Virus record (IMG/VR): IMGVR_UViG_3300031958_000003
Span: 1-35,223 of that record
Source: a virus
Strand: one strand, 5' to 3'
Length of the DNA: 35,223 bases
Both the position numbers and the translations under genes were made by a program. Shown piece by piece: positions 1 through 7,165 of this stretch (position 1 is its first letter; every line of letters starts with the position of its first letter). A model generated the notes under the pieces. It saw only the letters and a list, made by a program, of their open reading frames with translations, was not told the origin of the DNA and made no database searches.

Positions 1-1
1 T

Positions 2-799
2 GAGGATGTTGTGGCGCGCGAGTACAGCGCGCGCACCGAGCGCGCAGTGCAGCGTGTTAATCGCATCTTGCGCCACCCGGCGCACGAATGGGCACTCGGC
101 AACATCGACCGCGCCGTAGTTGCTCCAGGGAGCCGCGTGCGCGTGTCAGATGATGGCGGCACGCTGCTGGGCGCACAGGGCTTGCTGGAGGTCAAAACCG
201 CCAGCGCTTACAAGGCCGGAGAGTGGGGCCGCGACGGCGATGAAGACGCCGTGCCTGTGCACCATCAGGCGCAGGTGATGTGGTACATGGGCATCACCGG
301 GCAGCCATGGGCCGATGTTGCTGCCCTCATCGGCGGTCAGCGCATGATCGTCCGTCGCATCGAGCGCGATGACGAGATCATCACGGCAATGCTGGAACGC
401 GCGCATGAGTTTTGGCACAAGCACGTGCTGACGCGCCAGCCGCCGGAGCCTACCACAGCCAAGGATGTCGAGCGCCTGTTCCCCGCAGACAATGGCGAAG
501 CGGTCGAAGCCGACGAATCACTGCTCGCGGCATACAACGCCGCGCGCGAGGCAAAGGCGCGCATTGCGCAAGCCGAGGCTGACTACGAGGCCGCGACAGA
601 GCGCATCAAGCTGGCATTGGGCGAGCGATCAATCCTGGCGCTCAACGGCCAGCCGCTGGTGACGTGGAAGGCCGCAAGGCCGACCCGCCGTACCGATTGG
701 AAGGCGGTAGCGGAAGCGGTGCATGCGCCCGCTGACGTGATTGCCGCATACACAACCGAAACCCCCGGCAGCCGCCGGTTTTTGCTCAAGGAGATTTGA
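2..799 (+). CDS. YqaJ-type viral recombinase / alkaline exonuclease, 5'-truncated by the window edge
   Basis: The reading frame is open from base 2 and enters from outside the window, so the N-terminus is missing; a GTG at 11 is in frame but is unlikely to be the true start. The visible part has the core of the PD-(D/E)XK YqaJ fold: an ALGNIDRAVV strand carrying the acidic residue, then LLEVKTA with the E-x-K catalytic pair, then HHQAQVMWYMGITG, the usual Q-containing helix. The C-terminal third is a charged coiled coil. The family degrades one strand of dsDNA ends to make the ssDNA on which RecT acts. The next gene, recT, follows by one base, so the two form an exonuclease-annealase pair. 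The family call is firm; the exact start cannot be seen. Confidence 0.85.
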   Translation, partial: EDVVAREYSARTERAVQRVNRILRHPAHEWALGNIDRAVVAPGSRVRVSDDGGTLLGAQGLLEVKTASAYKAGEWGRDGDEDAVPVHHQAQVMWYMGITGQPWADVAALIGGQRMIVRRIERDDEIITAMLERAHEFWHKHVLTRQPPEPTTAKDVERLFPADNGEAVEADESLLAAYNAAREAKARIAQAEADYEAATERIKLALGERSILALNGQPLVTWKAARPTRRTDWKAVAEAVHAPADVIAAYTTETPGSRRFLLKEI

Positions 800-800
800 C

Positions 801-1727
801 ATGGCAACCACCCTCAAAGCAGCAGTCACTGGCCAAGCGCCAGCCACTCGTAAACCCGCCAACGACATCGCCGTTTTGCTCTCCGATCCGAAGATCAAGG
901 CGCAGATGCAGATGGCGCTGCCAAAGCACGTCACCGCAGATCGCCTGGCCCGTGTCGCACTGACAGAAGTGCGGAAGAACCCGGCGCTAGCGCGCTGCGA
1001 CCAGACCAGCTTTCTCGGCGCACTCATGACGTGCGCCCAGCTTGGGCTTGAGCCTGGCGGCCCGCTTGGGCATGCCTACCTGGTCCCGTTTGAAAACCGC
1101 AAGGCCAACCGTACTGAGGTGCAGTTCATCGTCGGCTACCGAGGGATGATCGACCTGGCGCGCCGATCAGGCCAGATCGTCAGCATCGAAGCACGCCCGG
1201 TGTACGATGGAGACACCTTCGAAGTGTCGTTCGGTCTCGAGAGCAACCTTCGGCACGTCCCCGACTTCGACAACCCGAACCGGGTTCAGCCGGACAAGCT
1301 GCGGTTCGTCTATGCCGTCGCCAAGCTCAAGGATGGCGGCGTGCAGTTCGACGTGATGAGCCGCCGCGAGGTCGAGGCCGTGCGCGCGCAATCGCGCGCT
1401 GGCACAAGCGGCCCGTGGGTGACGCATTTCGAGGCGATGGCGCTCAAGACCGTGCTGCGCAGGCTGTTCAAGTGGCTGCCTATCAGCGTGGAACTGGCGG
1501 CCGCCATCGAAGCGGATGAGCGCGCTGAGATCGGGTTGCCGCAGGACAACGTGCTGGCTCCAATAACCGTGGATGCTGAGACTGTGGAAATCTTGGCACA
1601 ACCGCCGCAGCCGCAGGCCGAGCAAGAGCAGCCCAAGCAACCCGCAGAGCCAACTGCGCAAGGCACTCCCGCTGCACAGCATGACGATTGGATAGAGGAG
1701 TACGAAGCCGAGGAGGGCGACCAATGA
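801..1727 (+). CDS. recT: RecT single-strand annealing protein
   Basis: This 308-aa protein starts at ATG 801 behind AAGGAG, rather than at the upstream in-frame ATG 741, which lies inside the exonuclease gene. It carries the RecT core: RVALTEVRKNPALARC, then SFLGALMTCAQLGLEPG, then HAYLVPFENRK, then FIVGYRGMIDLARRSG, and a C-terminal HFEAMALKTVLRRLFKWLP helix. RecT coats ssDNA and anneals complementary strands during phage recombination and replication. The last ~55 residues form a Pro/Gln-rich linker ending in a strongly acidic tail (DDWIEEYEAEEGDQ), a plausible protein-docking peptide. The stop overlaps the next gene's start (ATGA), so the two are translationally coupled. Confidence 0.95.
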   Translation: MATTLKAAVTGQAPATRKPANDIAVLLSDPKIKAQMQMALPKHVTADRLARVALTEVRKNPALARCDQTSFLGALMTCAQLGLEPGGPLGHAYLVPFENRKANRTEVQFIVGYRGMIDLARRSGQIVSIEARPVYDGDTFEVSFGLESNLRHVPDFDNPNRVQPDKLRFVYAVAKLKDGGVQFDVMSRREVEAVRAQSRAGTSGPWVTHFEAMALKTVLRRLFKWLPISVELAAAIEADERAEIGLPQDNVLAPITVDAETVEILAQPPQPQAEQEQPKQPAEPTAQGTPAAQHDDWIEEYEAEEGDQ

Positions 1728-2383
1728 GGACCTACAGCATCACCATCACCGGCAAAACCCCGCTGCTGATGCACTACGACAACATCGAGTGGGCCGACTT
1801 CATGGACCGGTGGAAGGCCGACCCGGCGAACAAGAAGGTCAGCAAAGCCGGGGATGATCGCTCACCAGCTTGGCGCTGGCTTGGCAGCGTGTACCACGAC
1901 GGCACGCGGATCGTGATGCCGCAGGAAAACCTCATGCGCTCGATCATGGAGGGCGGAGCGATGGTGCCCGTGCCTGGCGCAAAGATGGGCAAGACCTTCA
2001 AGGCCCAGACGCAAAGCGGCATGATGAGCGTCGAACCGTATTGGCCGCTTACCATCGATGGCCGCGAGATCGCCTGGGCCGACATTGAGCGACTCAAGGA
2101 CGAGCAGGACTTCGAGGCGCACAAGGGAGCCGTGCGCGCGCTTGGGTTTGACCTGCTGGTCAAGCGCGCAAAGATCGGCTCGTCAAAGCACATTCGCGTG
2201 AGACCCGAGTTCCCCGCCGGTTGGCAACTGCACGGGCATATTGCCGTGTGGGACGAGCAGATCACGAAGGACGCGCTTCAGACGATCCTCAACTTTGCCG
2301 GGCAGTACAAGGGGCTTGGCGACTGGCGGCCCGGTGGGCGGACGCCGGGGCCTTTTGGGACGTATGAGGCTAGGGTCGATTGA
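1724..2383 (+). CDS. Phage protein with RAMP/Cas7-like features, coupled to recT
   Basis: This 219-aa protein starts at ATG 1724, which overlaps the recT stop. I do not recognise a characterised family. It begins with a beta strand (YSITITGKTPLLMH), has IVMPQENLMRSIM at about 63-75, and ends with an amphipathic helix followed by a glycine-rich stretch (GLGDWRPGGRTPGPFGTY, about 198-214) and a final strand. That layout, an early strand, a P-x-x-N-x-x-R-S helix and a terminal G-rich loop, is what RAMP-fold proteins (Cas5/Cas6/Cas7) show. The ENLMRSIM segment parallels ENALRSVM in the Csf2 of this same window. The RAMP link is my inference. Position argues for a role in recombination or nucleic acid binding. 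Confidence 0.6.
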   Translation: MRTYSITITGKTPLLMHYDNIEWADFMDRWKADPANKKVSKAGDDRSPAWRWLGSVYHDGTRIVMPQENLMRSIMEGGAMVPVPGAKMGKTFKAQTQSGMMSVEPYWPLTIDGREIAWADIERLKDEQDFEAHKGAVRALGFDLLVKRAKIGSSKHIRVRPEFPAGWQLHGHIAVWDEQITKDALQTILNFAGQYKGLGDWRPGGRTPGPFGTYEARVD

Positions 2384-2404
2384 GTAGGTGTTGAGGTGAG
2401 GCCG

Positions 2405-2479
2405 GGCCAGGCTGGGCATGGCGAGGCGCGGCGCGTCCTGGCCAGGCTTGGCATGGCGAGGCGCGGCAGGGCATGGCAA
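2405..2479. repeat. GGCNN pentamer array 1 (15 units)
   Basis: Fifteen consecutive 5-bp units, all beginning GGC except one (GTCCT at 2435). The array contains a 28-bp direct repeat (2405-2432 and 2440-2467) with a single mismatch, offset by seven units (35 bp). It begins 21 bp after the stop of the preceding gene. Because the period is five, long low-complexity open frames appear here on both strands; they are artefacts. Confidence 0.85.
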
Positions 2480-2492
2480 GGGCTGTTTCCAG

Positions 2493-2512
2493 CGGACAGC
2501 GTAGGCTGTCCG
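2493..2512. other. Perfect hairpin between the two pentamer arrays
   Basis: CGGACAGC (2493-2500) and GCTGTCCG (2505-2512) are exact reverse complements around a 4-base loop. The hairpin sits almost centrally in the 54 bp separating the two GGCNN arrays. No T-run follows, so it does not look like an intrinsic terminator. It could be a protein-binding palindrome or an RNA processing structure in the operon transcript. Confidence 0.7.
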
Positions 2513-2533
2513 GTGCGAATAGCATCGGGGCCG

Positions 2534-2608
2534 GGCGTGGCGTGGCAGGGCCGGGCCGGGCAGGGCCTGGTCGGGCGCGGCAGGGCAGGGCCCGGCGTGG
2601 CAAGGCAA
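2534..2608. repeat. GGCNN pentamer array 2 (15 units)
   Basis: Fifteen consecutive 5-bp units, fourteen starting GGC and one GGT (2569). The array has exactly the length of array 1 but a different unit order. Every unit puts GG at the same phase, so the + strand is strongly G-rich and the - strand C-rich. Confidence 0.85.
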
Positions 2609-2614
2609 GGGCCC

Positions 2615-2654
2615 TTTTGGGCATTTTTGGGCAATTCTGGCGATTTTTGGAGAA
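2615..2654. repeat. Four 10-bp T-tract units upstream of a start codon
   Basis: The units TTTTGGGCAT, TTTTGGGCAA, TTCTGGCGAT and TTTTGGAGAA follow without gaps. T-runs spaced one helical turn apart are the classic pattern of intrinsically curved DNA. The array ends next to the AAGGAG ribosome site (2655-2660) of the gene starting at 2667. Whether it is a promoter element, a curvature element or simple drift cannot be told from sequence. Confidence 0.65.
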
Positions 2655-2666
2655 AAGGAGCGCAAA

Positions 2667-3146
2667 ATGGCACAAAAACACTACTCATGGCAGGACGGCC
2701 TGCCGACTGGGCCGGATGTGACGCTGATTCGCAAGCGCTGGCCTGATCTGAAAGTTGGGCAGCGCATTGAGTATCAGGAAATCGCAGAGCTGCTCGGGAT
2801 CGAGATCGGAACATCTCGCTGGCAGACGGTGACCGACGCATGGCGCAAGCGTGAGCTCGATGGCGGGCGCGTCATCAAGTGCATCCCAGGCAAGGCGTTC
2901 GTCGTTGCTACTGCCGAGCAGATCATCGACGACACCTACTCAACGCTCAAGCACATCTCGCGCGCCGCGCGGCGTCAGCGCATTCACCTTTCAACGGTCA
3001 AGGTGGCGGATGCGCAAACAAAGGCGGTTGTTGATCATCAGGCCCGCTTGATGCACGCGGTCGAGCAAGACGCCAAGGCCAAGCGACAATTGGCGCTGCC
3101 ATCAACGGCGGTTCAGTCGATGCCGAAGATCAACCGGGTGGTGTGA
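2667..3146 (+). CDS. Hypothetical phage protein, possible nucleic-acid-binding adaptor
   Basis: This 159-aa protein starts at ATG 2667 behind a strong AAGGAG. I do not recognise the family. The middle (IEYQEIAELLGIEIGTSRWQ followed by TDAWRKREL) reads like a winged-helix or HTH-type segment, and the C-terminal half is helical, basic and alanine-rich. No signal peptide or membrane segment is present. It lies between the repeat spacer and csf1, ending 3 bp before the csf1 start. It is therefore either the last recombination-module gene or an accessory of the Cas block. Confidence 0.7.
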   Translation: MAQKHYSWQDGLPTGPDVTLIRKRWPDLKVGQRIEYQEIAELLGIEIGTSRWQTVTDAWRKRELDGGRVIKCIPGKAFVVATAEQIIDDTYSTLKHISRAARRQRIHLSTVKVADAQTKAVVDHQARLMHAVEQDAKAKRQLALPSTAVQSMPKINRVV

Positions 3147-3149
3147 TCC

Positions 3150-3962
3150 GTGAGCATTTTGTCCCACACATCGCTCATACACGCAGCGGACGGCCACCCG
3201 GCCCACGGTCTTGAGCGGGAGCCGTCAACCGGTGGCGTGTGTGCCACCTGTGGCGCATCAATCGACGCGGGGGTGCCGATCTCCGCCATTGAGACGCCAA
3301 CCACGTCCAGTCATGCCGATCTTTTTCGCTTCGGCGGGCGGTACGTTTGCGACGCATGCGCATGGCTGTTTGGCGCGGGCAAAGGTAGGCCGGGCAACTT
3401 CGCCGCCACCCCGCAGCGCCTGGAGTACACCGTCATCAGTCTAGAGTCAGTCGTGGAGGACAAACGACCGTGGCTGACCGTGCTTCGCGAGCTGGCCGAG
3501 ATGCCAGCAGACACGCCCGTCACAGGCGTCATGACCACCGATGTCAAGCCTCGCTTGTGGCACCGCTGTCGTCTCGCGACGATAGGACGCTTTGGTCTGT
3601 ACGTGCACGCGCCCGAGTACGACGTGAGCGAGTGGTGCGATTTCGACCTGCGGGCATGCCTGGCCGTGATCGATCTGATGCTCGCGCCCCTGCGCGCGGG
3701 CTTTGCTAAGTCCAGCGTGTACCACGGCCTGCTGCGCGACTACGCGCGCGCCAGCCGCGATCTGCCGCAGGCCATGTCATGGGACGCGGCGCTGGCCCCT
3801 CACCGCCAGCAGCCGCACTTTTTGCCCGCGCTGATCGCCGCGGGTGTCATTAAAGGAGAGAAGACCGATGGCAAATCCACTGCAAGACCTATTGTCCACG
3901 CTCAGCCCGCCGCAGCAGGCGGCGATCCGGCTGATCAAGCTAAGCCTCGACTGTTTCAATAG
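3150..3962 (+). CDS. csf1: Csf1-like large subunit of a type IV-B CRISPR-Cas complex (zinc finger protein)
   Basis: This 270-aa frame starts at GTG 3150, 3 bp after the preceding stop. The N-terminal part has a four-cysteine zinc finger: C31-x2-C34 and C67-x2-C70, with the second pair in RYVCDACAWLF. This is the hallmark of Csf1, the Cas8-like subunit of type IV complexes. The remainder is mixed alpha/beta with no nuclease motif. Assignment rests on this finger plus position directly ahead of cas11-csf2-csf3-cysH, since sequence similarity in the family is weak. Residues 240-270 overlap the start of cas11 in another frame and look like alternate-frame sequence (Ala/Pro/Lys-rich), so the functional core may end near residue 235. 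Confidence 0.75.
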   Translation: MSILSHTSLIHAADGHPAHGLEREPSTGGVCATCGASIDAGVPISAIETPTTSSHADLFRFGGRYVCDACAWLFGAGKGRPGNFAATPQRLEYTVISLESVVEDKRPWLTVLRELAEMPADTPVTGVMTTDVKPRLWHRCRLATIGRFGLYVHAPEYDVSEWCDFDLRACLAVIDLMLAPLRAGFAKSSVYHGLLRDYARASRDLPQAMSWDAALAPHRQQPHFLPALIAAGVIKGEKTDGKSTARPIVHAQPAAAGGDPADQAKPRLFQ

Positions 3963-4320
3963 CGCCGAAGGCACCGGCCTTTTCGCCGGTGTCGAGCGCT
4001 ACAACGTCTTGGCCGGGCGCATCGAAATCTGTGCTGTGCAGGCGGACAGCCTGCCGCGATTCTGGGCGCTGCTGCTGCGCCGCATGCAGTGGCCTGTCCC
4101 GCCGAAGGGGGCGGATGCGGCCATCCTGGAGGCCATCAGTGCGCCCGACGCGCACGAGGTGCTGCGCGTGCTGGCGACCGAGACCGCCAGCGTCATCACC
4201 CTGGCGCGCATGGCGCACGACCAGGACAAGACCGCGCGGCGCGCACTGCGACAAGCCGTCAATCCAGAGACGGACGAAATCGCCGAATTCGGCGACAAAT
4301 CCTTGGAGGGCATCCTATGA
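3868..4320 (+). CDS. cas11: Cas11-like small subunit (type IV-B)
   Basis: The protein is 150 aa from ATG 3868, which has AAAGGAG about 10 bases upstream; an in-frame GTG at 3844 is less well placed. It is almost entirely helical, beginning MANPLQDLLSTLSPPQQAAI, and has no catalytic motif. That fits the small all-helical Cas11 subunits that form the belly filament beside Cas7 in class 1 complexes. The gene overlaps csf1 by 95 bp and its stop overlaps the csf2 ATG (ATGA). The call depends mainly on size, helical content and position between csf1 and csf2; the sequence alone would not identify it. Confidence 0.65.
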   Translation: MANPLQDLLSTLSPPQQAAIRLIKLSLDCFNSAEGTGLFAGVERYNVLAGRIEICAVQADSLPRFWALLLRRMQWPVPPKGADAAILEAISAPDAHEVLRVLATETASVITLARMAHDQDKTARRALRQAVNPETDEIAEFGDKSLEGIL

Positions 4321-5156
4321 AGTACCAAATCCTGCTGCAAGCCGTCACGCCCATCAGCCACGGCGACACCGTGACCGGCGTGGACAACCAGACCAACACC
4401 CGCATCTTCATGCGCCAGGGCATGCTGATCGACGGCAAGCCTGCGCGCGTGCCGTCCGTCTCCGAGAACGCCCTGCGCAGCGTCATGTTTCGCTACCCGC
4501 TGCACGACCACCTGCTGCGAGCTTTGGAGATCGAGCGCGGGCAGCTGCCGCAGTCGGTCGTCAACTTGCTCTTCTCCGGCGGCAGCATGGCAAGTGGCGC
4601 TAAAGCCCCGACCAACGAGATCGAGCTTGGACACAAGGTCAAGCAGCTCTATCCGTCCATCGACCTGCTGGGCGGCGCTGTCGACGCCTTTATCCTGCCG
4701 CGCTCTCGCATGCGCCTGGCGGCGTGGCTGGTGGCGCGCGAATACCTGCCTGCGCTGCGTTTGGTGGCCCCGGAGCTTGCCGACGAGGCCGCCGGTGTGT
4801 CGGCCTACGACATGCTCACGGAGGAGACACGCACGCGCGGCGCCGGCAGCGAGTCAAGCGGCAACCAAATGCTCTACACCTACGAGACGCTCGCTGCCGG
4901 CGCCAAGCTGCTGCTGGAGGTGAGCCTGGACCCACACACGCCGACCGCTACAGCGGCTGCTGTTGCCCATGCGCTGGCCTGCTGGGATGGCTATATCGGC
5001 GGGCAAGGGCGGCAAGGGCGCGGGCGCATGGAGGTTGTGCGCGCCTCTCTTGGTGGCGCAGACGCCTATCTCGCGCATCTCGAGACGCACCGTGACGCAA
5101 TGCGCGACGGGCTGGTGACGGGCAAGCTGGGCACGGAGCGGGTGCTATGCCAGTAG
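4317..5156 (+). CDS. csf2: Csf2, Cas7-family backbone of a type IV-B complex
   Basis: This 279-aa protein starts at ATG 4317 behind GGAGG. It has the RAMP/Cas7 layout: an N-terminal strand (KYQILLQAVTPISHGD), a VPSVSENALRSVMFR helix (about 45-59), a middle insertion with a Gly/Ser-rich stretch (TRGAGSESSGNQML, 173-186) that could be the thumb, and a C-terminal glycine-rich loop (YIGGQGRQGRGR, 226-237). Cas7 proteins polymerise along RNA and form the complex backbone; RNA contacts usually involve the thumb and G-rich regions. The gene overlaps cas11 by 4 bp and csf3 by 10 bp. This is the most secure member of the block. Confidence 0.85.
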   Translation: MKYQILLQAVTPISHGDTVTGVDNQTNTRIFMRQGMLIDGKPARVPSVSENALRSVMFRYPLHDHLLRALEIERGQLPQSVVNLLFSGGSMASGAKAPTNEIELGHKVKQLYPSIDLLGGAVDAFILPRSRMRLAAWLVAREYLPALRLVAPELADEAAGVSAYDMLTEETRTRGAGSESSGNQMLYTYETLAAGAKLLLEVSLDPHTPTATAAAVAHALACWDGYIGGQGRQGRGRMEVVRASLGGADAYLAHLETHRDAMRDGLVTGKLGTERVLCQ

Positions 5157-5884
5157 ATTGGACGCGCATCGGCCCGCTGCCGCAGGTATCGCCGTGGCGG
5201 CACGGGCAGCGAACGCTCACCTGGGAGCAGCGCCGCGACCAATACGCGGCCCTGCCCAAGACCGGGCTGACGATCATCGCAGAGCTCGCGACGCCGGTGA
5301 TCCACGCCGAGCGTGACCGGACGCACCTGGACGGCATCCTGTCGAGCGCGGCCATCACCGACCACCCCGCACCGAGCAAGTGGGACAAGGTGGCCATCGT
5401 CCCGCTGCCGATCGACCTGCTGTGGGTCAGCCCACGCGGCCTGCCGCTATGGGCCTGCACGCCGCTGATGGTGTCAGACGATGCTGTGACCAGCCACGAG
5501 TACTGGCACAAACGCTACCCGACCGACCGGGCCGACTTCGGCGTCAAGCTGAGAGCCAACACATCGTCAGGCCGTTGGCGCGAGTACAGGATGCCGGTGG
5601 CGGCACAGTCTGCATCACGACTTGTGGCAGTCGCCATCGGACACGCGGCAGAGGTGCAGCGCCTGCTCGATGGCATCACGCACATCGGCAAAAAGGGCAG
5701 CATGGGCTATGGCCGCGTACTGCGCTGGTCGGTAGTCGAGACGGCAGGCGTGACGCCCGATGACATCCTGTCACGCCGCCCGGTGCCGGTCGCATCCCGG
5801 CTACGACAGGGCGACCCAGTGCCTGCGCGCGGCTGGACGCCGCCCTACTGGTACGCACCGCACTGGGAGGACTGCGTAGGATGA
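5147..5884 (+). CDS. csf3: Csf3, Cas5-family subunit of a type IV-B complex
   Basis: This 245-aa protein begins at ATG 5147, inside the end of csf2. It has an LTIIAELATPVIH strand (41-53), the H-L-D-G-I-L motif (60-65) typical of Csf3, an SGRWREYRMP segment (141-150), and a C-terminal RAMP glycine-rich loop (IGKKGSMGYGRV, 180-191). Cas5-type subunits cap the 5' end of the guide RNA. The last ~50 residues are Pro/Arg/Trp-rich and follow the RAMP domain. The stop overlaps cysH (ATGA), so expression is coupled. No Cas6 gene is present in the window to process a guide. Confidence 0.85.
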   Translation: MPVDWTRIGPLPQVSPWRHGQRTLTWEQRRDQYAALPKTGLTIIAELATPVIHAERDRTHLDGILSSAAITDHPAPSKWDKVAIVPLPIDLLWVSPRGLPLWACTPLMVSDDAVTSHEYWHKRYPTDRADFGVKLRANTSSGRWREYRMPVAAQSASRLVAVAIGHAAEVQRLLDGITHIGKKGSMGYGRVLRWSVVETAGVTPDDILSRRPVPVASRLRQGDPVPARGWTPPYWYAPHWEDCVG

Positions 5885-6645
5885 CGCCGATGCAGCGCGC
5901 GACCTATCTTGCCCACTGGCGCACCAATGCCATGCAGCGGCGCGTGTCTGAGGCGCGCGCTGTCCTTGAGCGCGCATCCGCCCTTGGGCGCGTGTCGGTC
6001 AGCATGTCGTGGGGCAAGGACAGCGTGGTGGTGGGGCATCTTGCGCTGCAGTGCCTGCCGCCGCCCGTTGCCATGCTGCACATCGCCAGCAGCTACCGGC
6101 TGCCAGGCTTTGAGCGCGTGCAAGCGTACTTTGCTGCACGTGCAAACCTGCACATCATCGAGCCGCGAAGGACCCTGCAAGAGACCATCGAGTGGCTGCG
6201 AGAGGTGGGGCTGCCGCACGAGCGCACGGCGGCACAGCAGCGGGCGGTTGTCAAAGCGATCAAAAAAGACGTTGGCACCGCATGGTGTATCGACCACGGC
6301 TTTGGGGTGCAGGTGATGGGCATCCGGGCGGATGAGAGCAAAGCGCGCCGGGCATTTTTGCGCGCAAAGGGCGCGATCTACGACGCGCACGGTATCAAGT
6401 TTGCCTGCCCGCTTGCCTGGTGGACTGCAAAGGACGTGTGGGCGTATATCGTCGCCCACGACCTGCCGTATCACCCGCTCTACGACTGCGAGACGCACGG
6501 GCATACGCGCGAGACGCTGCGCAATACGGGGTGGCTATCCACAGACGGGGCGGAGCGCGGCCGGATCGTGTGGCTGCGTGAGCACTACCCTGAGCAGTAC
6601 GCGGTGCTGGCGCGTCAATTTGAGCAGGTGAGGGCATATACTTAG
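5881..6645 (+). CDS. cysH: CysH-like PP-loop ATPase associated with type IV-B CRISPR-Cas
   Basis: This 254-aa protein belongs to the PAPS reductase/adenine nucleotide alpha hydrolase family. The ATP-pyrophosphatase loop is SMSWGKDS (41-48), and a second motif, GIRADESKARR (147-157), matches the family. It lacks the C-terminal E-C-G-(I/L)-H segment with the catalytic cysteine of true APS/PAPS reductases, so sulfonucleotide reduction is unlikely. Chemistry through an adenylated or pyrophosphate intermediate (as in DndC or ATP sulfurylase-like proteins) is more plausible. A cysH-like gene next to csf genes is the recognised signature of subtype IV-B. It overlaps csf3 by 4 bp and closes the block. 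Its target is unknown. Confidence 0.88.
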   Translation: MTPMQRATYLAHWRTNAMQRRVSEARAVLERASALGRVSVSMSWGKDSVVVGHLALQCLPPPVAMLHIASSYRLPGFERVQAYFAARANLHIIEPRRTLQETIEWLREVGLPHERTAAQQRAVVKAIKKDVGTAWCIDHGFGVQVMGIRADESKARRAFLRAKGAIYDAHGIKFACPLAWWTAKDVWAYIVAHDLPYHPLYDCETHGHTRETLRNTGWLSTDGAERGRIVWLREHYPEQYAVLARQFEQVRAYT

Positions 6646-6663
6646 GCGATAAAGCGCTAGAGT

Positions 6664-6831
6664 TTGCTTGCTGCACTACTCAATCGGCGAGTTCACGGCG
6701 CATATCCGCTTGGGGCTCCAGCGCCACTCATCTTTACTGCATGCGAACCGAAAGTGCGGACCAAAGATTGGAGCAAGTTTTGCGCTGAGGTATCTAAGAA
6801 ACTTCGCAGTCCTGAAGATATGAAGGTGTGA
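6664..6831 (+). CDS. Possible small gene or remnant (55 aa, TTG start)
   Basis: Between cysH and the next gene, a frame opens after TAG 6658 and runs from TTG 6664 to TGA 6829. It encodes a protein-like sequence ending KDWSKFCAEVSKKLRSPEDM. It has no ATG/GTG start near its beginning and no good ribosome site. Its stop lies one base before the ATG of the following gene, as in a real operon. It may be a short gene using TTG or the 3' remnant of a longer gene lost by deletion. Confidence 0.35.
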   Translation: MLAALLNRRVHGAYPLGAPAPLIFTACEPKVRTKDWSKFCAEVSKKLRSPEDMKV

Positions 6832-6832
6832 T

Positions 6833-7165
6833 ATGGACTACATAGCTGAGGCATACCGATACGCGGACATGCTCGATCATGCGGAAATGTATCACTGCAC
6901 CGAACTTGGTGATGGTGACGATGCTGTGATATACGGATGGAAGATCACGGACAATCCGTGCCACGATGCGGCGGCATTGCTTATTGCCATGGCCCAAGAG
7001 ATCGAGAAGATGCGAGCGGACGCCGAACGCTACCGGTGGTTGCGCGACGAATGCGGGCTCCAAAAGCTGCCATACGACGATTACGGTATTGGGCCGATGT
7101 TTCCGTGTGGCGAAGAGCTTGATAAAGTCGTCGATGAGTTGCGCGGCGTCGGGCCGGGGTCGTGA
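6833..7165 (+). CDS. Hypothetical phage early protein with AERYRWLRD motif
   Basis: This 110-aa acidic protein starts at ATG 6833. The segment EIEKMRADAERYRWLRDECG is the type of short helix often found at the C-terminus of small early proteins in proteobacterial phages; its function is unknown. No membrane segment or signal peptide is visible. It is the last + strand gene of the left arm. Its stop is one base from the stop of the convergent Rz gene, with no terminator hairpin between them, so early and late transcripts must read into each other here or be stopped elsewhere. Confidence 0.7.
   Translation: MDYIAEAYRYADMLDHAEMYHCTELGDGDDAVIYGWKITDNPCHDAAALLIAMAQEIEKMRADAERYRWLRDECGLQKLPYDDYGIGPMFPCGEELDKVVDELRGVGPGS

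Follow-up and report, generated by a model that had tools for sequence, protein, structure and literature searches.

An array-less type IV-B CRISPR-Cas operon exchanged between phages as an exact block of genes, with a VIPR locus beside it in one phage

The virus record IMGVR_UViG_3300031958_000003 (35,223 bases; the whole record was analysed and is referred to here as the window) carries at positions 3150-6645 five genes that almost certainly form an intact, array-less type IV-B CRISPR-Cas effector operon, csf1-cas11-csf2-csf3-cysH. All five genes are intact, and each overlaps or abuts the next. Read from left to right, the plus strand encodes a RecE-like exonuclease, RecT, a homologue of the RAMP protein Vipr, two tracts of GGYNN repeat units, a gene of 159 amino acids, the five genes of the csf operon and a small gene (6833-7165), beyond which the lysis genes lie on the opposite strand (Table 1). 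The genes outside of this locus are of siphovirus type and encode a replication protein, a RuvC-like resolvase, terminase, portal, head protease, tape measure, tail fibre J and endolysin. The tail fibre J, tape measure and portal fit the siphophage assignment made in an earlier note on this DNA, which was written from the sequence alone. The same note called the phage temperate, a description that is unsupported, as the genes examined showed neither an integrase nor a repressor. It also placed the csf genes in a recombination operon, which is right as regards the presence of recE and recT but overlooks the VIPR locus that adjoins them (1724-2666).

The operon is assigned to type IV-B because it agrees with the published definition of the subtype, namely the presence of csf1, csf2, csf3, cas11 and cysH and the absence of an array, cas6 and dinG. 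Profile searches bear out the five coupled genes that the earlier note had read from the sequence, and both RAMP proteins, Csf2 and Csf3, match type IV profiles (Table 1). Searched as a single sequence, Csf2 finds the type IV-B Csf2 protein 7jhy as its top PDB match (2.8e-8), and the Csf3 family profile matches solved Csf3 proteins (7xfz, 1.8e-6); a structure model of Csf3 was too poor to be used (pLDDT 44) and was discarded. Cas11 is 55-92% identical to its relatives. The sequence hallmarks that had been pointed out are present as well: Csf1 contains a CxxC/CxxC finger whose C31-C34 and C67-C70 pairs are invariant in six relatives, Csf3 contains the Csf3-type HLDGIL motif, and the glycine-rich RAMP loop of Csf2 is kept in 20 phage, plasmid and archaeal members. 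The last gene encodes the expected CysH-like PP-loop ATPase, whose family keeps the S-x-GKDS loop and, when aligned with other IV-B CysH proteins, has a C-terminal part without any conserved cysteine; CasCysH has been described as lacking the catalytic cysteine (PMC8175902). The ratio of nonsynonymous to synonymous substitution rates (dN/dS) is 0.06-0.34 for cas11, csf2, csf3 and cysH as compared to their relatives, indicating that the coding sequences are under constraint and that the proteins are maintained. Among the ten proteins encoded by positions 1-7165, PADLOC identifies no Cas protein beyond Csf1, Cas11, Csf2 and Csf3, and PADLOC and Pfam together reveal no cas1/cas2, cas6 or dinG, genes that the subtype is known to lack. 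Assignment to type IV-A was rejected, since the locus has no dinG helicase, cas6/csf5 or array.

Table 1. Features of the locus and of the segments compared with other phages; PADLOC E-values refer to the whole protein.
Feature	Position	Strand	Evidence
csf1 (Cas8-like subunit, Cys4 zinc finger)	3150..3962	+	PADLOC typeIV_Cas8 3.1e-10, N-terminal part only
cas11 (small subunit)	3868..4320	+	PADLOC typeIV_Cas11 5.1e-5, and three more type IV Cas11 models
csf2 (Cas7 backbone)	4317..5156	+	PADLOC typeIV_Cas7 1.2e-33
csf3 (Cas5)	5147..5884	+	PADLOC typeIV_Cas5 1.3e-32
cysH (CasCysH-like PP-loop ATPase)	5881..6645	+	Pfam PAPS_reduct 3.9e-20
Mobile unit (nucleotide homology to the two closest cassettes)	3160..6644	+	95.5% to L002 over 3160-6644; 86.4% to L003 over 3160-6646
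VIPR, csf cassette and gene 6833-7165, replaced by ~0.9 kb in the sister phage	1715..7163	+	L052 flanks 87% and 95% identical
Vipr homologue (RAMP protein)	1724..2383	+	family profile matches SUSP1 Vipr 36pp, 1.2e-12
vrRNA-like guide gene 1	2395..2528	+	16 of 17 GGYNN units (2395-2479), then hairpin tail; fold z = -3.05
vrRNA-like guide gene 2	2529..2666	+	16 of 16 GGYNN units (2529-2608), then GGGCCC-TTTT-GGGC hairpin tail; fold z = -1.31, not significant
Candidate vap (VIPR accessory) gene, 159 amino acids	2667..3146	+	homologues near vipr in 6/6 related viral VIPR loci
RecE-like / YqaJ exonuclease, upstream operon partner	11..799	+	PHROG 434 7.9e-63, Pfam YqaJ 1.5e-14
RecT annealing protein	801..1727	+	Pfam RecT 4.8e-56

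Phages exchange the type IV-B operon as a gene-exact cassette. Nucleotide homology between the window and the two closest cassettes (records L002 and L003) starts 10 bases inside csf1 and stops at the end of cysH, and directly outside of these limits the sequences have nothing in common. One of the two belongs to a sister phage (records L002 and L052), whose recE-recT, lysis and terminase regions are 87%, 95% and 92% identical to those of the window, respectively. In the sister phage, the csf cassette is located in the head operon, where it ends just before the head protease, and the lysis region follows recT after 0.9 kb; because only this short interval separates them, the 5.4-kb VIPR-plus-csf segment of the window is missing from the corresponding slot. 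The slot of the sister phage (L052 11782-12707) carries an unrelated open reading frame (ORF) of roughly 170 amino acids and therefore looks like a site for accessory genes. The five genes are thus found at two sites in near relatives, and they have possibly moved more than once. In other phages, the cassette lies 3' of recE-recT (L005), 3' of a tail protein (L061 and L062, the former ending with its contig after cas11), 3' of the genes for a single-stranded DNA-binding protein (SSB) and a DNA methyltransferase (L063), or between the terminase subunits (L013).

The earlier note looked to related prophages for the same placement, but the sites vary among recET, head, tail and terminase operons. 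It had also given the operon a role in the early programme of the phage, which is not a property of the cassette, as the sister phage carries it in a late head operon. A further suggestion was that the Csf complex is a partner of the RecE/RecT recombination machinery. The recET operon of the window, the position of the L005 cassette after recE-recT and that of the L063 cassette near SSB speak for such a partnership, but the same cassette occupies head, tail and terminase operons in the sister phage and others, so the proposed role is unsupported, is largely refuted by genomic context and appears extremely unlikely. Alternatively, the cassette could be selfish or neutral cargo that hitch-hikes without benefit to the phage, in keeping with its sporadic distribution and numerous insertion sites. 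This explanation is very unlikely, as its overlapping genes are intact and the low dN/dS values hold across relatives.

Judged by their Csf2 sequences, the phage cassettes form a IV-B lineage apart from those sampled on plasmids and in archaea. In a Csf2 tree, ten members from phages, prophages and contigs of metagenome-assembled genomes (MAGs) form a single clade with a support of 1.00 on a long branch; Csf2 identity is 62-98% inside this clade, and 19-30% to plasmid and archaeal IV-B proteins and to that of the Skermania phage SPI1. Three of the records are contigs of bacterial MAGs (L012, L013 and L014), of which L013 is clearly a prophage and the other two are too short to tell. The Csf2 protein of L012, from a Gallionellaceae MAG, is nearly identical to that of L005, which suggests the Gallionellaceae as the host group of the L005 phage. 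No public phages with a close csf2 were found, and a survey of 369 genomes for type IV Cas7 produced a single match that was convincing over the full length, from the MAG of L012, the others being weak and partial. In two records an additional gene is situated between csf3 and cysH; it encodes a 127-residue helix-turn-helix protein in L004 (9556-9939) and an 85-residue protein with no assigned family in L031.

In two further cassettes, the gene between csf3 and cysH is cas6e-like (L013 11490-12002 and L063 10618-11127). The encoded proteins match Cas6e in PADLOC (8.9e-14 for L013 and 1.5e-15 for L063) and PF08798 in Pfam (8.2e-12 and 1.3e-12, respectively, above the cut-off), and they are 65% identical to one another with a conserved Y-E-V-H-Q-H-L-H motif, the position of which we take to be the site of the catalytic histidine in type I-E Cas6e. 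The presence of cas6e in these cassettes is a departure from the textbook definition of type IV-B, which has no cas6. No array was found near either gene, and no second Cas6e was seen in the L013 genome; a cas6e gene without a nearby array fits the use of I-E-type CRISPR RNAs (crRNAs) that are made elsewhere. In a Thermococcus plasmid (L048), a gene annotated as Cas6 occupies the position of csf3 and is probably misannotated.

No promoter, array or non-coding RNA carried by the cassette is shared with its relatives. A repeat search of the window confirmed the absence of an array stated earlier, as it returned neither a CRISPR array nor repeats at CRISPR spacing; Rfam families and tRNAs have no match in the window, and no CRISPR array is present in any cassette record examined. 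CRISPR-like repeats in L063 and SPI1 were rejected as arrays, since they are located inside a pentapeptide-repeat gene and inside a gene of the tail region annotated as hypothetical, respectively. A promoter scan of both strands, which covers sigma-70 consensus sites only, found nothing. For the group formed by the window, L002 and L003, a cassette-specific non-coding RNA was rejected because homology stops at the gene ends; a shared RNA might still be embedded in the coding sequence.

Directly upstream of the csf cassette, the window contains what a 2026 preprint defines as a VIPR locus (PMC13142463). The Vipr homologue has no Pfam match; a tblastn alignment to phage SUSP1, whose locus served as the positive control for the detection of Vipr and GGYNN units, covers 92% of the protein, and its AlphaFold model (pLDDT 80) resembles Csm3 and type VII Cas7 in Foldseek. 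Both tracts fall within the definition of a vrRNA, 9-16 GGY/NN units followed by a 3' tail, and their hairpin tails resemble the tails of relatives. The longest GGYNN run in 60 resampled windows has 5 units, as compared to 16 in each tract of the window. Each of the six related viral loci combines Vipr and GGYNN tracts with a protein homologous to the 159-residue one. The candidate vap gene has no detectable homology to the ORF beside SUSP1 vipr (taken as vap1, the accessory gene of VIPR type II), in a comparison of few sequences. Inside tract 1 (2405-2459), a block of units (CA TG AT GA GC / CA TT AT GA GC) is present in two copies that flank a degenerate GTCCT unit, and this guide looks as if it had arisen by internal duplication. 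The VIPR tracts of L008 (4829-4873 and 7555-7599) flank vipr at a good distance, showing that the placement of vrRNAs varies within the clade of the window VIPR. A search of IMG/VR for vrRNA targets with both tracts (1-nucleotide skip rule, 9-unit seeds) gave four matches, which is about the chance level, and none extended convincingly past the seed. No targets with up to three mismatches were found in 399 genomes from the order to which a cassette-bearing MAG belongs, and there were none in the compared loci.

The VIPR and csf genes are directly adjacent on the same strand, the vap stop (3146) and the csf1 start (3150) being 4 nucleotides apart, and by analogy Vipr and Csf2 may both be viewed as RAMP proteins that bind repeat-spaced RNA. 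This arrangement raises the question of whether the Csf complex takes up the vrRNAs that the VIPR locus encodes, in which case it would use or protect the VIPR guides, and an ancestral and a CRISPR-derived RAMP system would constitute one hybrid effector with CasCysH as its output enzyme. However, neither a Vipr gene nor a tract of nine GGYNN units was found in any of 24 other IV-B carriers (16 plasmids, phage SPI1, 4 virus contigs and 3 genomes), an absence that is softer for the virus contigs, as virus records may be fragments. The same search detected Vipr together with a GGYNN tract in six of six VIPR carriers, and csf2 is present in none of seven other VIPR carriers. A conserved VIPR/IV-B pair was rejected on these counts. 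The two systems also differ in spacing, as the vrRNA repeat has a period of 5 nucleotides whereas the RNA in Csf2 is kinked every 6 nucleotides (PMC13142463, PMC7937560). Both the loading of vrRNAs by the Csf complex and a joint effector with CasCysH as its output are highly improbable, and the two systems probably do not work as one; since the pairing is not conserved, their adjacency in the window looks like two RAMP modules gathered in one accessory slot.

With no detectable RNA of its own in the phage cassette, any RNA must come in trans. The account that we put forward, tentatively, is that the operon encodes a ribonucleoprotein which loads RNAs supplied in this way and is used in conflict between mobile elements. 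Capture of outside RNAs or guides is favoured by the residence of the cassette in competing phages, by selection on all of the genes tested and by the presence of cas6e in some members. It also draws on the published IV-B complex, which assembles on heterogeneous RNA of 55-60 nucleotides with a 6-nucleotide spacing, Csf2 and Cas11 forming a filament on this RNA (PMC7937560). The analysis establishes gene identity, mobility and selection; for the source of the RNA, its target and the enzymatic output, we infer the following. The operon would be transcribed by read-through from whichever phage operon hosts the cassette. Csf2 and Cas11 would then form a filament on host crRNAs, other small RNAs or the guides of rival elements, with Csf3 and Csf1 as its caps, and CasCysH may be an ATP alpha-hydrolase-type enzyme that has no reductase cysteine and acts on the captured RNA or its pairing partner. 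The selected effect would lie in mobile-element conflict, most likely in neutralizing or diverting RNA-guided silencing directed against the phage, and the complex may be used on rival replicons or on host defence.

Several points weigh against this account of RNAs captured in trans. We know of no RNA bound to any phage Csf complex, and cas6e is missing from most cassettes. The null result of the promoter scan is weak evidence for read-through transcription, which we infer, and the window phage has no known host. In the one IV-B system studied, I-E crRNAs expressed together with the complex showed no enrichment (PMC7937560), a result that speaks against the specific capture of crRNAs. The heterogeneity of the RNA bound by the published IV-B complex suits a sequence-blind sponge, in which the Csf complex would coat any RNA of ~55-60 nucleotides and soak up the guide RNAs of the host or of rivals without a base-paired target; sponge or scavenging hypotheses have already been proposed (PMC8175902). 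The absence of an array from every cassette examined and the free movement of the cassette between operons agree with a sponge as well, but it leaves unexplained both the conservation of CasCysH and Csf1 and the cas6e genes of L013 and L063, and we consider it rather unlikely.

The window cassette shares its composition with plasmid-borne type IV-B systems (Mycobacterium sp. JS623, PDB 7jhy; Rhodococcus plasmids), which likewise contain csf1-cas11-csf2-csf3 and a cysH-like gene, have no array or cas1/cas2 and conserve the Csf2 glycine loop. It differs in that the Csf2 proteins are 19-30% identical and fall into separate clades with a support of 1.00, and in that window-type cassettes are phage-borne in late or early operons, some of them with cas6e. 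The cultured phage SPI1 (KR011061; L032 10846-14479) is similar in that its ORFs 40-44, which are unannotated as such, correspond to csf1-cas11-csf2-csf3 and a PAPS_reduct gene, but its Csf2 is 26-30% identical to the phage clade and groups with actinobacterial plasmid systems. The Fuxiviridae, viruses of Bathyarchaeia, also encode a type IV-B system with CysH, but compared by description only they are archaeal viruses whose system has its own two-repeat mini-array (PMC10848311). The VIPR system of phage SUSP1 resembles that of the window in combining a Vipr RAMP protein with GGY/NN tandem-repeat RNAs in a phage, but its Vipr is about 24% identical and the ORF beside it has no detectable relation to the candidate vap (PMC13142463). 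Prophages, lytic phages and archaeal viruses have all been reported to carry type IV systems (PMC10848311), so finding type IV-B in a phage is no novelty in its own right; the earlier statement that the subtype is mostly reported on plasmids is right about its rarity elsewhere, but not in an absolute sense. In the open-access literature searched, we found four of the present observations unreported: the separate phage IV-B lineage, the exchange of the cassette at exact gene boundaries that the sister phages show, the occurrence of cas6e within IV-B operons and the position of such an operon next to VIPR.

What type IV-B systems do and which guide they use are questions on which the phage lineage bears. 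Sister phages that carry the cassette early or late, with and without VIPR and with and without cas6e, constitute natural experiments, and SPI1 is a cultured phage whose type IV complex could yield its bound RNA during infection. The adjacency of VIPR makes the question of which RNA the IV-B complex uses testable and, if the hybrid reading were true, type IV-B and VIPR would work as one RNA-guided effector in the window phage.

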